64,000 bases of DNA, from contig NZ_KB907307.1 in assembly GCF_000381925.1 (NCBI RefSeq), positions 3,100,001-3,164,000 on the forward strand, read 5' to 3'. The notes under the pieces are model-generated. The model was given only the letters and a program-made list of their open reading frames with translations, was not told where the DNA came from and did not search any database. How positions within the stretch are numbered: position 1 is the stretch's first letter; each line of letters opens with the position of its first letter. This DNA comes from Nocardia sp. BMG111209. GTDB taxonomy: Bacteria; Actinomycetota; Actinomycetes; Mycobacteriales; Mycobacteriaceae. Made by a program: the position numbers and the translations under genes. Shown here in pieces: positions 151 through 6,331 of the stretch.

Positions 151-666
151 CTAGTCCGCGGCCCACAGGATGCCCGCCATCGCGCGGCCGGCGATGAACC
201 ACCACGCCGTGGCGATCGCCGCGGTCCCGAACAGGGCGACCGCGATCCGCCAGGCGGGCATCGGGATCGGGGCGGGCCGGTCGTCGGGGATGTTGCGCAA
301 CCGATTCCCGTACCACCGCAGCCACCCCTGCGCGGAACCCAGTGCCTCCCTGGGGAACAGTCCGTAGACCAGTCCGAAGCCGCGGACCGCGCCGACCCCG
401 ATACCGCCGGTCCACAGCACACCGAGCGCGATCTGGCCGATGGCCGCGAGGCCGATGGCCAACTGCCCCACCACGAACAGGCCGCGCGCGAGTTGGCCCA
501 CCGCGACCACTCCGGTCGAAACCTGGCCCAGCGCGAAGAATCCGGTCGCGATCTGACCGATCGCGATGAATCCGGTCGCGTGCTGGCCCACTCCGAGAAC
601 ACCGACCGCCATCGGTCCGACGGCGATCACGCCGACCGTTCCCGGGCCGACAGCAAACATCTGCAT
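151..666 (-). CDS. Repeat-containing membrane protein (nine-residue GQ repeat)
   Basis: A 171-residue protein of unknown function. Residues 5 to about 85 are a tandem array of some eight nine-residue units of the form tG-h-h-A-h-G-Q-h-A, for example TGFIAIGQIA, TGFFALGQVS and TGVVAVGQLA. Near the C-terminus is a normal transmembrane helix (IAVALFGTAAIATAWWFIAG). The regular Gly spacing suggests a packed repeat structure in or at the membrane. The longer open frame extends upstream to 1092, but it then runs antisense to the flavin-protein gene, so the ATG at 666 was chosen. That start diverges from the flavin-protein gene, with 48 bases between them. Confidence 0.7.
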   Translation of the reverse strand: MQMFAVGPGTVGVIAVGPMAVGVLGVGQHATGFIAIGQIATGFFALGQVSTGVVAVGQLARGLFVVGQLAIGLAAIGQIALGVLWTGGIGVGAVRGFGLVYGLFPREALGSAQGWLRWYGNRLRNIPDDRPAPIPMPAWRIAVALFGTAAIATAWWFIAGRAMAGILWAAD

Positions 667-714
667 GGCCCGAAGCCTACGGCCAACCGGCCGTCCGGAT
701 GCGATCATGGGCGC

Positions 715-1170
715 ATGACGACATGGCAGGACGTGGAACAGTCGGTGCCGGAGTTCGCGCAGCGGGTGCGCGCCCTGTTCGACGCGCACCGGCACAAGAC
801 CCTCGCCACCATCCGGGCCGACGGCGCGCCGCGCATCTCCGGGATCGAGGCCGCCTTCACCGACGGCGATCTGGTGTTCGGCTCGATGCCCGCGGCCCGC
901 AAATCCGCTGATCTGCTGCGCGATCCGCGCTTCGCCCTGCACAGCGCCACCGTCGACCCGGTCGAGGGCGAGGAGGCGAAATGGCCCGGCGAGGCGAAGA
1001 TCGCGGGCCGCGCGATCCCGGCCGGGCCGATCGCCGACGGACCGGAGGGCGACAGCTTCCACGCCGACATCACCGAGGTGGTACACACCCACCTGAATGC
1101 CGAGGCGACCCTGCTGGTCGTCGAATGGTGGACGCCCGCACAGGGATTGCGCAGCGTGGACCGCGAATAG
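715..1170 (+). CDS. Pyridoxamine 5'-phosphate oxidase-like flavin-binding protein
   Basis: A 151-residue split-barrel protein of the PNPOx-like family, whose members bind FMN or F420 and reduce or sense small molecules in the cytoplasm. The N-terminal half has the family pattern: a helix (VRALFDAHRHKTLATI), then strand-turn-strand with DGAPRISGIEAAF, and the later G-S-M-P segment that normally contacts the cofactor phosphate. Length is typical of the family. The ATG at 715 was preferred over the upstream frame (from 493), which is antisense to the repeat protein. Substrate and choice of FMN versus F420 cannot be told. Confidence 0.75.
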   Translation: MTTWQDVEQSVPEFAQRVRALFDAHRHKTLATIRADGAPRISGIEAAFTDGDLVFGSMPAARKSADLLRDPRFALHSATVDPVEGEEAKWPGEAKIAGRAIPAGPIADGPEGDSFHADITEVVHTHLNAEATLLVVEWWTPAQGLRSVDRE

Positions 1171-2298: not shown

Positions 2299-3060
2299 AT
2301 GACAATCGAATACATCCGTTACCGGATCGAGCCGCCGGCCGCCGAATTCGAGGCCGCCTACGGTCGCGCGTCCCGCGCACTGGCGAAAGCGCCGGAGTGC
2401 GTCGACTACGAACTGTCGCGCTGCGTCGACGATCCCGGCAGTTACATCCTGCGCATCACCTGGACCTCCGTCGCGGACCATCTGCGGGGATTCCGCGGCG
2501 GTGCGCATTTCGCCGAGTTCTTCGCCGAGATAGAACCCTATGTGCGGCAGCTCGAGGAGATGCGGCACTACGAACGCACCGCAGTGGCGGGCGTCGGCGC
2601 CTCGGTGCCCACCCTGTACGAATGGCTCGGCGGCACAGCGGCATTGGAACATCTCACCGCGATCTTCTACGTCCACGTCCTGGCCGACGACCTGATCGGC
2701 CCGCTGTTCGCCGGTATGGACCCGGACCATCCCCGCTATGTGGCGATGTGGCTCGCCGAGGTGTTCGGTGGCCCGTCGCGCTACACCGACGAGCGCGGCG
2801 GCTACCACAGCATGCTGGCCCATCATCTGGGCAAGGCCATCACCGAACCGCAGCGGCGGCACTGGGTGTCGCTGCTCCTGGACTCCGCCGACGAGGCCGG
2901 TCTCCCCGCCGATCCGGAGTTCCGGGCCGCCTTCGTCGGCTACCTCGAATGGGGAACTCGCCTCGCCTTCACCAACTCCCAGCCCGGCGCCCACCCGCCG
3001 CAGCAGGCCCCGGTTCCGCACTGGGGCTGGGGCGTCGCGCCGCCCTATACCCCGGCCTGA
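2299..3060 (+). CDS. Antibiotic-biosynthesis-monooxygenase / truncated haemoglobin fusion
   Basis: A two-domain protein of 253 residues. Residues 1 to about 95 are a dimeric ferredoxin-like ABM domain (MTIEYIRYRI start; W-T-S-V-A-D-H-L-R-G-F core). Residues about 103-235 are a group II truncated haemoglobin: the LYEWLGG start, the conserved PLFAGMDPDHP stretch, EVFGGPSRYT, and HHLGKAI with the likely proximal haem histidine, then YLEWGTRLA. The C-terminal tail is Pro-rich. Such fusions are known in actinomycetes; a role in oxygen, NO or quinone chemistry is the usual suggestion. The ATG at 2299 was chosen because upstream codons in the same frame are antisense to the neighbouring gene. Confidence 0.85.
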   Translation: MTIEYIRYRIEPPAAEFEAAYGRASRALAKAPECVDYELSRCVDDPGSYILRITWTSVADHLRGFRGGAHFAEFFAEIEPYVRQLEEMRHYERTAVAGVGASVPTLYEWLGGTAALEHLTAIFYVHVLADDLIGPLFAGMDPDHPRYVAMWLAEVFGGPSRYTDERGGYHSMLAHHLGKAITEPQRRHWVSLLLDSADEAGLPADPEFRAAFVGYLEWGTRLAFTNSQPGAHPPQQAPVPHWGWGVAPPYTPA

Positions 3061-3152: not shown

Positions 3153-3617
3153 ATGTTGGAGACGGTTCCGGAAATCGTGGCCGCGGCCGTCGCGGCCGGT
3201 GCTGCCGCCGGGCTGAAGGAGACCGCCGCGCGCGCGGTCGGGGACGCCTACCGGCAGGTGAAAAGCCTGATCACCGGCCGGTATCGGCAGGTCGATCTCG
3301 CCGCGGTCGAGGCCCGGCCCGCCTCGGCGCATCGGCGCGACGAGCTGGCGGAGGATCTGACCGCCGCGGGCGCGAGCGGCGATGCGGAGTTGCTGGCGGC
3401 GGCGCAGGCCCTGCTGGCGGCGGTGCGCGCGCACGAGGCCGACGCGGGTGTGGCGGTGGGTGTCGATCTGGAACGGGTCCAGGCCGCCGCACTGCGGGTG
3501 CGCGAGGTCGAATCCACCGGTACTGGAGTACGGGTCGTCGACGGGAGTTTCGACGGCGACATCGAGATCGGTTCGGTGCGCGCCGGACGGCAGGACCCGC
3601 CGCCCGCACACCCCTGA
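3153..3617 (+). CDS. NLR-associated adaptor-like protein A, paralogue of the 5663-6331 gene
   Basis: A 154-residue protein of unknown family, homologous along its whole length to the small protein at 5663-6331: shared AAV-x-x-G near the start, AYR-x-V-x-SLI-x-x-RYR, and a C-terminal segment GVRVVDGSFDGDIEIGSVRAG that matches GVRIADG...VEIGDVRAG. The N-terminal part is predicted helical; the C-terminal 25 residues are beta-prone and contain I-E-I-G, similar to the (I/V)-Q-(I/V)-G core of RHIM-type amyloid motifs. The ATG at 3153 was chosen over 3144 because a GAGGGG site lies 9 bases upstream and the paralogue aligns there. Its stop is 18 bases from the stop of the convergent NLR gene. Confidence 0.6.
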   Translation: MLETVPEIVAAAVAAGAAAGLKETAARAVGDAYRQVKSLITGRYRQVDLAAVEARPASAHRRDELAEDLTAAGASGDAELLAAAQALLAAVRAHEADAGVAVGVDLERVQAAALRVREVESTGTGVRVVDGSFDGDIEIGSVRAGRQDPPPAHP

Positions 3618-3635
3618 TCTCCGGGAGATCGCTTG

Positions 3636-5843
3636 TCAGACCGCTGAATTCGCATTGCCGATCGCCGCGGACTGCTGCTTCCAGGTCGCGAGGATCGCCT
3701 CGAGGTGGCGGGTGTCCGGATGGTCCGGTCCCAGGGTCCGCCGGTGGTTGCCGAGGATCTGCTCGTAGAGTCTGATCGCGTCGTCCATGCGCCCCGCGGC
3801 CTTGTGCGCGCGCATCACCTGATCGCGACTGGTTCTGGTGTCGAGATGATCGGCGCCGAGCAATCGCTCACGATCGGCGAAGGTGCTGTGCAGCAACCGG
3901 ATCGACTCGTCCAGCCGGCCCACGGCGCGATAGGCCTCGGCGAGATTGCCGCGGGAGGCGAGGGTGTCCGGATGGTCGGCGCCGAGCAGCCGCTCGCGAT
4001 CGGCGAGGATCTTCGCGTAGAGCAGAATCACCTCGTTCGACCGGCCCGCGACGCGATAGGCGTGGGCCAGATCGCTCTGCGAGACAAGGGTATCCGCGTG
4101 GTTGGCGCCGAGGATGCGCTCCCGGTCGGCGAGGGTGCGGCGCAGCAGTGCGATCGCCTCGTCCAGCCGGCCGGCGCTGCGATAGGCGGCGGCCAGACTG
4201 TTCCCGGCGGCGAGGGTGTCCGCGTGCTCGGCGCCGAGGATTCGCGCACGGTCCGCCAGCACCTGTTCGTGCAGCGCGATCGCCTCGCTGATGCGTCCCG
4301 CCGCGCGGTAGGCCCTCGCGAGATCGCCACGGGACGTGAGGACTTCGGGGTGCGCGGCGCCGAGCAGCCGCTGCCGGGCGGCGAGGGTCCGTTCGAAGAG
4401 CGGGATCGCCGACTGCGGCCGGCCCGCCGCGGTGTAGGCGATCGCCAGGACACTGCGGCAGGCGAGGAGATCCGGATCGTCCGGCTCGAGTACCCGTTCG
4501 CAGTCGGCGAGCAGCCGTGCGGCGAATCGGATGGCGCGCGTGGTGTTCTCGGCCGCGGTCAACTGCTCGGCGGCCCAGATCCGGACGTGGATCAGGCGGC
4601 GCGCGACCTCCGGAACACCGTCGGCCGGAAGGGTATCGGTGATCGCGTCGATATGGTCGGCCAGCCGCGCGCCCTCGATCCGCCGCTGCCACGCGAAAGT
4701 GCGCTCGAAGACATGGTTTTCGACGGTGGTGAGGGCATGGTCGAGCAGCCGGAGCCGATCGCCGGGACGGTCGGCGCGTTCGCGCACGACCCGGCCGACC
4801 AGCCGATGCATGACGACCGCGGTGCCGTCGTCGGACCAGGCGAGCAGCGAACTTCCGACACAACGGGCGAGCGCCTCGTCGACCCGCGGTTCCCCGGCCA
4901 GCAGGCTGCGCGCGACGCCGGTCGGCGACAACATCGCGGTCAGTTCCAGCAGTCCGGTGACCGCCGCATCGAGTTCGCCGTCGCCACCGAGGGTTTCGGT
5001 GGTCTCGAGCGACAGCAGGATCGCCTTGTCGGCCCGGCTCGGATGCGCGTGCCCCGGTAGGCGGGTGAGCGCGCTCGGCAGCGCCGCCAGCAGTTGCCGG
5101 TAACGGCCGTAGTCCAGGCGGCGTTTCGCGATGGTGGCCGCCGCCTGCGTCAACGCGAGCGGCAGATCACCGAGATCCGCGGCGACGGCATCGGCGCCGT
5201 CCGCGTCGGCGATCCCGGTGGCCGCGCCGAGATAGCGGACGGACTCGGACCGGTCGAAGACCGGGAGGTGCAGCAACTCCCCCAGCGTGCCGAAATCGTT
5301 GTCGGTACTGGTGATCAGAACCTTGGTGCCGCTGTGGGTCGGGAGGAACCGGCTGATCCGGTCGGGATCGGTGGCGTTGTCCAGGACGAGCAATCCGGGG
5401 TCGGGCCGCCCGCTGAGATGGTCGCGCAACCGGACCGCGGATCGCTGCGAATCCCCGGTCGGATCGGCGACACCGATCCGGGTGGCGACCGCGGCGAGGC
5501 CGTCCAGCAACGTATCCGGTGTCTCGGCGTCGACCCAGGCGATCAGCGCGCAGGTCCCCGCGGCGAGCGCCGCCCGCGCACAGGCCGCAGCCAATTGCGT
5601 CTTCCCGACGCCGCGCATCCCGGTGGCCACCACGGCCACCGAGGTTTCGGCCAGCAGATCGGTCAGCAGTCCCGATTCGTCGCGCGCCACGAAATGCGCC
5701 GGCGCGGCGGGTATCCGGCCCACCACGATGTGCCGCTCCGGATCCTCGATCGGCGGGCCACCGGCCCCGAGGTAGAAGGCGATCTTCTCGGCGTTGTTGC
5801 CGACGACGCGGAACGTGGCCCCCTGCGCGATCGAGGCAGGCAC
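3636..5843 (-). CDS. NB-ARC/TPR STAND NTPase (NLR-like)
   Basis: A 735-residue signalling ATPase. Residues 1-30 are a short non-catalytic leader with a beta-prone motif (FRVVGNNAEKIAFYLG). The NB-ARC domain spans about 50-330, with P-loop GMRGVGKTQ at 75-83, Walker B LLVLDN at 151-156, an ITST sensor around 177, and the GDLPLAL motif near 228. A helical region leads to seven 42-residue kinesin-light-chain-type TPRs (about 450-725), each starting like LGADHPDT. Such STAND proteins oligomerise when the repeats sense a ligand. The GTG start at 5843 lies inside the 3' end of the upstream adaptor gene; the frame is also open further upstream. Context suggests an anti-phage or cell-death module, which is inference. 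Confidence 0.85.
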   Translation of the reverse strand: MPASIAQGATFRVVGNNAEKIAFYLGAGGPPIEDPERHIVVGRIPAAPAHFVARDESGLLTDLLAETSVAVVATGMRGVGKTQLAAACARAALAAGTCALIAWVDAETPDTLLDGLAAVATRIGVADPTGDSQRSAVRLRDHLSGRPDPGLLVLDNATDPDRISRFLPTHSGTKVLITSTDNDFGTLGELLHLPVFDRSESVRYLGAATGIADADGADAVAADLGDLPLALTQAAATIAKRRLDYGRYRQLLAALPSALTRLPGHAHPSRADKAILLSLETTETLGGDGELDAAVTGLLELTAMLSPTGVARSLLAGEPRVDEALARCVGSSLLAWSDDGTAVVMHRLVGRVVRERADRPGDRLRLLDHALTTVENHVFERTFAWQRRIEGARLADHIDAITDTLPADGVPEVARRLIHVRIWAAEQLTAAENTTRAIRFAARLLADCERVLEPDDPDLLACRSVLAIAYTAAGRPQSAIPLFERTLAARQRLLGAAHPEVLTSRGDLARAYRAAGRISEAIALHEQVLADRARILGAEHADTLAAGNSLAAAYRSAGRLDEAIALLRRTLADRERILGANHADTLVSQSDLAHAYRVAGRSNEVILLYAKILADRERLLGADHPDTLASRGNLAEAYRAVGRLDESIRLLHSTFADRERLLGADHLDTRTSRDQVMRAHKAAGRMDDAIRLYEQILGNHRRTLGPDHPDTRHLEAILATWKQQSAAIGNANSAV

Positions 5844-6331
5844 GGCGACCGGGGGTGCTGTCGGCGTGCCCGGGAAGGGCCCGGCGGATCGACCGGCCCG
5901 GCCCGGACGTCGCCGATCTCGACCGGGCCGGCGACGATGCCGTCGGCGATCCGGACCCCGGTCTGCGGTGATCGGACCGTCCCGATCCGGATCGCGGACG
6001 CCCGGACCCGCACCAGATCGATACCGGCCGCGGCGACCGCCGGGACCTGCCGATCGTCCAGCACGGAGATCAGATGGATTGCGGCAGTGAGTAATTCGTG
6101 ATCGTGCGCGGCACCCGCGTCCTGCAACTCCTCCGCCAGGACCGCACGCCGCGCCGGCGAATCCGGACGCCGCTCGACCGCGGTGACATCGGCGGATCGA
6201 TACCGGCTCGCGATCAGGCTCCCGACCGCCCGATAGGCCGCGGCGACCGCCGGTTCGGCGCTGTCGCCTCCGGCCGCGGCGCCGGAAGCCACCGCATCGG
6301 CCACGATCGCCGGCAGCGACTCCGACCCCAT
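5663..6331 (-). CDS. NLR-associated adaptor-like protein B (frame overlaps NLR gene)
   Basis: A 222-codon frame whose first 149 or so residues are homologous to protein A at 3153-3617, including the terminal motif GVRIADG...VEIGDVRAG. Beyond residue about 150 the translation becomes Arg/Ser/Pro-rich and runs 181 bases into the NLR gene in a different frame, where the NLR frame is clearly the coding one. So either the real protein has a junk tail, or a frameshift (natural or a sequencing error) has separated what was one long adaptor-NLR protein. The ATG at 6331 follows an AGGGGA site. The protein is first in an adaptor-NLR operon. Confidence 0.6.
   Translation of the reverse strand: MGSESLPAIVADAVASGAAAGGDSAEPAVAAAYRAVGSLIASRYRSADVTAVERRPDSPARRAVLAEELQDAGAAHDHELLTAAIHLISVLDDRQVPAVAAAGIDLVRVRASAIRIGTVRSPQTGVRIADGIVAGPVEIGDVRAGPVDPPGPSRARRQHPRSPCLPRSRRGPRSASSATTPRRSPSTSGPVARRSRIRSGTSWWAGYPPRRRISWRATNRDC

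Follow-up and report, generated by a model that had tools for sequence, protein, structure and literature searches.

How is an NLR-type receptor connected to the small protein encoded just upstream of it on the same strand, when the two genes overlap in different reading frames? This question is raised by a locus in Nocardia sp. BMG111209 (assembly GCF_000381925.1, contig NZ_KB907307.1, positions 3,100,001-3,164,000), a stretch of 64,000 nucleotides that we refer to as the window. The locus contains an NB-ARC/TPR-type NLR gene and two paralogous small-protein genes, here called small1 and small2. A first-pass annotation of the window had described an NLR with two flanking adaptors, and the -1 frame change between small2 and the NLR went unseen in it. 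We consider that small2 and the NLR probably form one gene unit, expressed via a programmed -1 ribosomal frameshift. This reading draws on four features established by sequence comparison among relatives, namely the frame relation, the slip codon, a covarying stem and the scarcity of start codons.

The NLR open reading frame (ORF) given by start-codon search opens at GTG 5843 and occupies 3636-5843 on the minus strand (735 amino acids). As described earlier, it carries the P-loop GMRGVGKTQ and seven TPR stretches (TPR_10, E 1.5e-55). It matches the NCBIfam family FxSxx_TPR (NF040586) with 320 bits, the cut-off being 300; the match to NB-ARC is weak (17.8 bits vs a cut-off of 23.5), and that to AAA_22 is likewise weak and below its cut-off. 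The small1 gene (3153-3617, plus strand, 154 amino acids) is convergent with the NLR, and the homology claimed for the two small proteins is borne out, with small1 as a query retrieving small2 at E 1.5e-31 and 53% identity in a protein search. Both also carry the beta-prone motif (GVRVVDG..IEIGSVRAG in small1, GVRIADG..VEIGDVRAG in small2). The length of small2 has to be corrected. It had been put at about 150 residues ending at the motif, whereas the ORF (5663-6331, minus strand) has 222 codons; in frame 0 it encodes the helical domain and the beta motif, continues past the motif into a tail foreign to the family, and overlaps the NLR ORF by 181 nucleotides. The NLR frame is itself open upstream into small2, and a proline-rich linker stands where the family resemblance of small2 ends. 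From the slip site onwards, the -1 frame (3636-5879, minus strand) is open for 747 codons plus the stop and encodes the linker, an N-terminal motif, NB-ARC and the TPRs, and its product lies above the FxSxx_TPR family cut-off. Two more copies of the family occur elsewhere in the same genome (C1:1146422 and C2:24416).

In a family search, a match was present in 76 of 150 genomes of the window's genus. Around family members 80 stretches were fetched and 65 were kept (>100 bits); L102 and L104 (in-frame fusion; partial match) were excluded from the 65 rows by choice. The 65 relatives come from 43 genomes, the window's own genome among them, and together with small1 and small2 they make up 67 rows, in which the junction was located via the protein alignment. 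Three full-length-like matches (G072:C37, G135:C69 and G016:C122) lie outside the compared set, and L119 and L163, whose matches are on the minus strand, lie outside the evidence. Behind the junction, an ORF of at least 300 codons is found in the -1 frame in 50 of the 67 rows, and never in frame 0 or +1. At a threshold of at least 180 codons, the counts are 58 of 67 for -1, 0 for frame 0 and 6 for +1, and the median open lengths in the -1, 0 and +1 frames are 790, 6 and 49 codons when small1 is left aside. Among the matches listed, every separate ORF that matches an NLR and overlaps the small gene on its downstream side is in -1. Since the relatives conserve the change into the -1 frame at this junction, small2 and the NLR are, on the sequence evidence, most likely translated as a single unit. 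Small2 is then probably no separate adaptor: it most likely serves both as the N-terminal part of the NLR, reached through frameshifting, and as a free protein.

The -1 products are of several kinds. FxSxx_TPR is matched by 36 of the 56 products scanned and TPR_12 by 42; among the others, L045 has WD40 repeats and L078 an NPHP3-type NTPase. From this variety we conclude that one head precedes varied STAND-like receptors, as judged by domain matches; the small proteins are also not found mainly away from NLR genes, in keeping with the annotation. In L083, L090, L098, L100, L101 and L156 the -1 partner has about 225-237 residues, and the two that were scanned, L083 and L098, gave no Pfam match. 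In-frame fusions exist too, joining the head to an NLR (L093), to TPRs (L103, by eye) or, in one frame, to another NTPase-like part (L107, by eye). The helical domain alone is fused in-frame to Sel1- or TPR-like repeats in L105, L110, L111 and L113 (by eye). Named relatives are mostly Nocardia, with a few Streptomyces and one Longimicrobium, and outside Nocardia the family is rare, with matches in 8 of 298 genomes of the order (1e-15), 2 of 396 of the phylum (1e-12) and, with a second alignment, 6 of 394 at class level; the window's own genome is part of all three counts, and further members of its genus are part of those for order and class. One genome from a different genus within the same taxonomic family also has the arrangement (L118/L156), with C_CCT and a 237-codon -1 frame.

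At the junction itself, the aligned proline codon reads C CCT in 49 of 65 rows and C CCC in 12, giving 61 of 65 with C_CCY; these codon counts, like the 67-row frame counts, use the alignment column for the site. The window has C_CCT (5876-5879, minus strand), with CCT at 5878-5876 in frame 0 and CCC at 5879-5877 in the -1 frame. Among the other proline codons of the small genes (n=207), CCT accounts for 6% and CCC for 15%, together 21%, and among the proline codons of the -1 ORFs beyond codon 60 (n=1679) the values are 10% and 39%. One of the four remaining rows is small1, which has C CCG at the slip position and a -1 frame of only 59 codons with no -1 gene behind it; it looks like an orphan copy. 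According to the part of Sharma et al. 2014 that was available (PMC4066793), all 16 Z_ZZN tetramers were tested in Escherichia coli and six proved clearly shift-prone; these include C_CCU and C_CCC, whereas C_CCA and C_CCG were weaker. What stands at the frame junction is, by that measure, a shift-prone slip motif.

Behind the slip codon, the RNA structure was analysed in an alignment of 58 junctions. For a 10-pair stem that starts 5 nucleotides past the slip codon, 71% of cells are paired, compared with 65.9 +/- 0.9 in shuffled alignments. The spacing of 5 nucleotides equals that of the E. coli stimulator, which began 5 nucleotides after the tetramer according to the same part of PMC4066793. 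All 10 pairs contain double changes, with 42 doubly changed cells compared with 15.6 +/- 3.2 after shuffling; none of 500 shuffles reaches 42, and shifting the stem register by 1 to 3 lowers the number to 10-34. The 5' arms pair better with their own 3' arm than with those of other junctions (p <= 5e-5, 20000 permutations), the own 3' arm beating the mean of the others in 42 of 58. A stem score of at least 18 is reached at 43 of 58 junctions vs 2.7% of control CCCY sites taken from the same loci (n=3162). The phase of the stem register says little: 52 of 58 junctions have their best register in phase modulo 3, but mismatched arm pairs favour the same phase (2801 of 3306). Across the family, the putative stimulatory structure is kept by compensatory changes. 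In the window, the predicted hairpin (5837-5872, minus strand) has a stem of 8 pairs, formed by 5872-5865 and 5844-5837, with a 4-pair helix inside it. It folds at -19 kcal/mol (z -1.75) and begins 3 nucleotides after the slip codon as folded and 5 in the family register. A covariance model, R1, was built from the 58 junctions with the window site included in its training. In 148 genomes it reports 36 places at E<=0.01, all of them training loci, a result that speaks for specificity and brings no new finds. In the window's own genome it recovers both other family junctions and one further place, C4:285043 (E 0.07), which lies within a long open frame resembling a modular synthetase (by eye).

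What kind of protein is the head? An AlphaFold2 model of small1 (24 sequences) has helices within residues 5-100 followed by four short strands, with a mean predicted local distance difference test score of 82. Foldseek with this model gave no match in the PDB at E<=0.001, and PDB sequences gave none at E<=1. The amyloid-signalling frame in which the annotation had placed the locus suits the wider family, where RHIM-like ends and matching NLR motifs are found. For the small proteins themselves, a RHIM label was set aside, as Pfam RHIM has no match at E<=10 in 24 members; the label "RHIM domain-containing", under which one source lists the homologue P0023, was not reproduced. A TRADD-N label found no Pfam match at E<=10 either, the presence of a TRADD-N model in Pfam being unchecked. 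The beta-prone sequence at the start of the NLR, FRVVGNNAEKIAFYLG, is present as noted earlier, but its likeness to the small-protein motif in the window is weak (shuffle p 0.062). Across the family, 22 of 59 loci have a -1 product whose N-terminal part is similar to the small-protein repeat at p<0.05, in a test that omits small1, L048, L050, L079, L081 and L089. A protein search with NLR residues 1-70 returned 182 candidates, none at E<=0.001. Of the earlier picture of an NLR with two adaptors, the link between an NLR and small helical proteins with a C-terminal beta-prone motif is supported, and the two flanking adaptors are not.

How would such a unit work? Most ribosomes would end the small protein in frame 0. 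The GC-rich hairpin would slow some of them, which would slip one base back at C_CCY as tRNA-Pro re-pairs from CCY to CCC, and reading would continue in the -1 frame; the slip itself, and its ratio, we infer. Its product would carry the helical domain, beta motif, linker, NB-ARC and TPRs as one fusion. The rarer fusion could then serve as sensor and seed. On detection of a trigger by the TPRs, the NB-ARC part would oligomerise, and the fused heads would cluster and recruit the free small protein, which would execute the response, possibly at the membrane in the manner suggested for Bell-domain proteins, in a suicidal defence. This division of roles, with the free small protein as a possible effector and the fusion as sensor and seed, is drawn by analogy; we hold its chances to be about even, and regard a role in defence as plausible. 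A competing explanation accepts the frameshift and makes the free small protein a brake or decoy for the fusion instead of an effector. It draws on the fact that no effector activity was identified and no fold was matched in the PDB, and on the occurrence of in-frame fusions; the resemblance of the wider family to effector/NLR pairs that share motifs speaks for an effector, and we regard a brake or decoy as possible and rather doubtful. A further variant, which we consider improbable, would make the frameshift part of immune sensing, with the amount of fused receptor following the behaviour of ribosomes at C_CCY and the hairpin. A phage or drug that disturbs translation would then shift the ratio of fusion to free protein and arm the system, and the stem would be kept as a translation sensor, not merely as a device for a fixed ratio.

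The frameshift itself has to be weighed against ordinary overlapping genes, in which the NLR would start at its own codon (GTG 5843) by translational coupling or from an independent ribosome site. Ordinary coupling occurs in the relatives with RHIM-like ends. These form a control set of 21 proteins with the helical domain (L116 and 20 others; L186 is truncated), of which 19 have a C-terminal RHIM-like motif by eye (e.g., GVQIGDHGTQHNTF), which we take to be RHIM/BASS3-like; several proteins downstream of control-set members begin with a matching motif. In 16 of the 21, an ORF of at least 150 codons starts within 40 nucleotides of the stop, five of them by ATGA overlaps, and the frames of the downstream ORF are mixed (10 in -1, 6 in 0 and 3 in +1; n=19). 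By the same rule, such a start occurs in 11 of 58 loci of the frameshift family, 10 of these in -1, the window included. Of 53 loci, 51 lack any ATG, GTG or TTG in the -1 frame within 30 nucleotides of the 0-frame stop, and the first -1 start comes at a median of 29 codons past the slip site (the start-codon count omits L048, L050, L069, L081, small1 and the loci lacking a site). Between codon 8 and the first -1 start, substitutions fall on third, first and second -1 positions in the numbers 184, 147 and 111, over 24 non-independent pairs. Family-wide, the downstream gene keeps the same frame and lacks a start of its own; the GTG of the window is a possible exception in its own copy, and it sits within a predicted hairpin arm. 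Coupling also leaves the constant -1 frame, the C_CCY constraint and the covarying stem unexplained, and we consider it unlikely. The frameshift cassettes look as though they derive from coupled pairs of the Bell/NLR type, slip site and hairpin having taken the place of the start. L161 and L162, which belong to a different family of the class, look like the control set, with a RHIM-like end and a downstream ORF. Together with L116 and L167-L185, they precede NLR-type or other ORFs, mostly with ordinary start codons.

Several observations weigh against a programmed frameshift, and some of them concern the window copy in particular. In this copy the 0-frame stop lies 71 codons on, vs the usual 2 to 7, and the NLR could start at a GTG that follows the slip site by 12 codons; in L084 and L085 a GTG overlaps the stop. 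R1 misses the window's own junction when its genome is searched, although that junction was in the training set, which coupling can also claim in its favour. RNAalifold on the junction alignment gives no consensus structure, minimum free energy z-scores of single junctions are often near 0 (part of the loci scored), and a stem as good as that of the window occurs in about 3% of control sites. As to the slip site, L055 has T CCT, and L079 (a gap) and L089 (another codon) are without one. Elsewhere in the analysis (-1 product scans, stems and start counts) the site was defined as the C CCY with the longest -1 frame. In the part of PMC4066793 available, the six best tetramers gave 0.26 to 5.6% in E. 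coli with a strong stimulator, C_CCY being only moderately shifty. The third-position excess is modest, though its order is that expected of a translated frame, and the -1 frame is broken or short in L048, L050, L069, L077 and L081. On balance, a programmed -1 frameshift is very probable for the family as a whole. For the window copy it is also likely, if somewhat less so, because of its displaced stop, the GTG available nearby and the failure of the model to find the site. A sequencing error or decaying pseudogene, for which the clearly broken relatives L048, L050, L069 and L081 and the missing near 0-frame stop of the window could be cited, is very improbable, given that dozens of genomes share this -1 change at one codon position and that the -1 frame of the window is open for 747 codons, with a product above the family cut-off. 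L048 is the nearest relative of the window NLR by N-terminal motif and, its NLR frame being broken, looks like a decaying copy.

The surroundings of the locus can be described briefly. Just upstream of small1, positions 2398-3060 (plus strand) encode a bacterial-like globin (46 bits) with about 70 extra residues on the N-terminal side, and an ORF at 151-1092 (minus strand) has a repeated VGQxAxG-like pattern, possibly that of a membrane protein. Between positions 3000 and 6500 of the window, neither terminator-like nor promoter-like sites were found, and Rfam gave no match at E<=1. PADLOC and a plasmid search gave no match.

If the frameshift holds, this would be a family of bacterial cellular NLR-type receptors assembled by programmed frameshift. 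A single message would then set how much free effector or adaptor is made per receptor-bound seed, a ratio that nucleation-based immune signalling must control, and annotation by start codons would break such a receptor up into two genes, one for a small protein and one for an NLR that is too short. Natural variants (C_CCT, C_CCC, the orphan C_CCG, in-frame fusions and ordinary coupled pairs) allow direct tests. In the literature, covered by title and the beginning of the abstract and excluding subscription papers such as Dyrka et al. 2020, we found no frameshifted NLR or STAND receptor. The word "frameshift" is absent from the main text of PMC8195603 and from PMC7159879, and Nocardia, TPR and NB-ARC are absent from the main text of the GeneTack survey (PMC3711429).

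Among known systems, the FxSxx_TPR family (NF040586) is the one to which the NLR belongs by cut-off; an FxSxx-COOH system was rejected, as the FxsB radical SAM partner is absent over cut-off in the window's own genome. TRADD-N and other effector-associated-domain STAND systems (PMC8195603, in the part available) also link small adaptor domains to STAND receptors, whereas the model of the Nocardia small protein has helices and then short strands. The Z_ZZN -1 frameshifts of insertion sequence elements share the tetramer slip site, a structure 5 nucleotides downstream and a downstream part in -1; in the accessible part of PMC4066793, A and U tetramers predominate and the product is a transposase, whereas here the site is C_CCY and the product an NLR-type receptor. 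The comparison with Bell-domain/BASS (bacterial amyloid signalling) pairs of effector and NLR genes bears on the proposed function. Bell proteins are described in the available part of PMC7889193 as small, helical, thought to be membrane-targeting and provided with C-terminal amyloid motifs, with adjacent or overlapping NLR genes. Similarly, the small protein here is helical, ends its family domain in a beta motif and is encoded beside or overlapping an NLR, and relatives with the same helical domain have RHIM-like motifs on both partners. The Nocardia small proteins differ in their C-terminal motif, which is another beta repeat lacking a RHIM match. They differ also in the link to the receptor, since that part of PMC7889193 speaks of adjacent or overlapping genes, whereas the partners here are predicted to be joined by a -1 frameshift.

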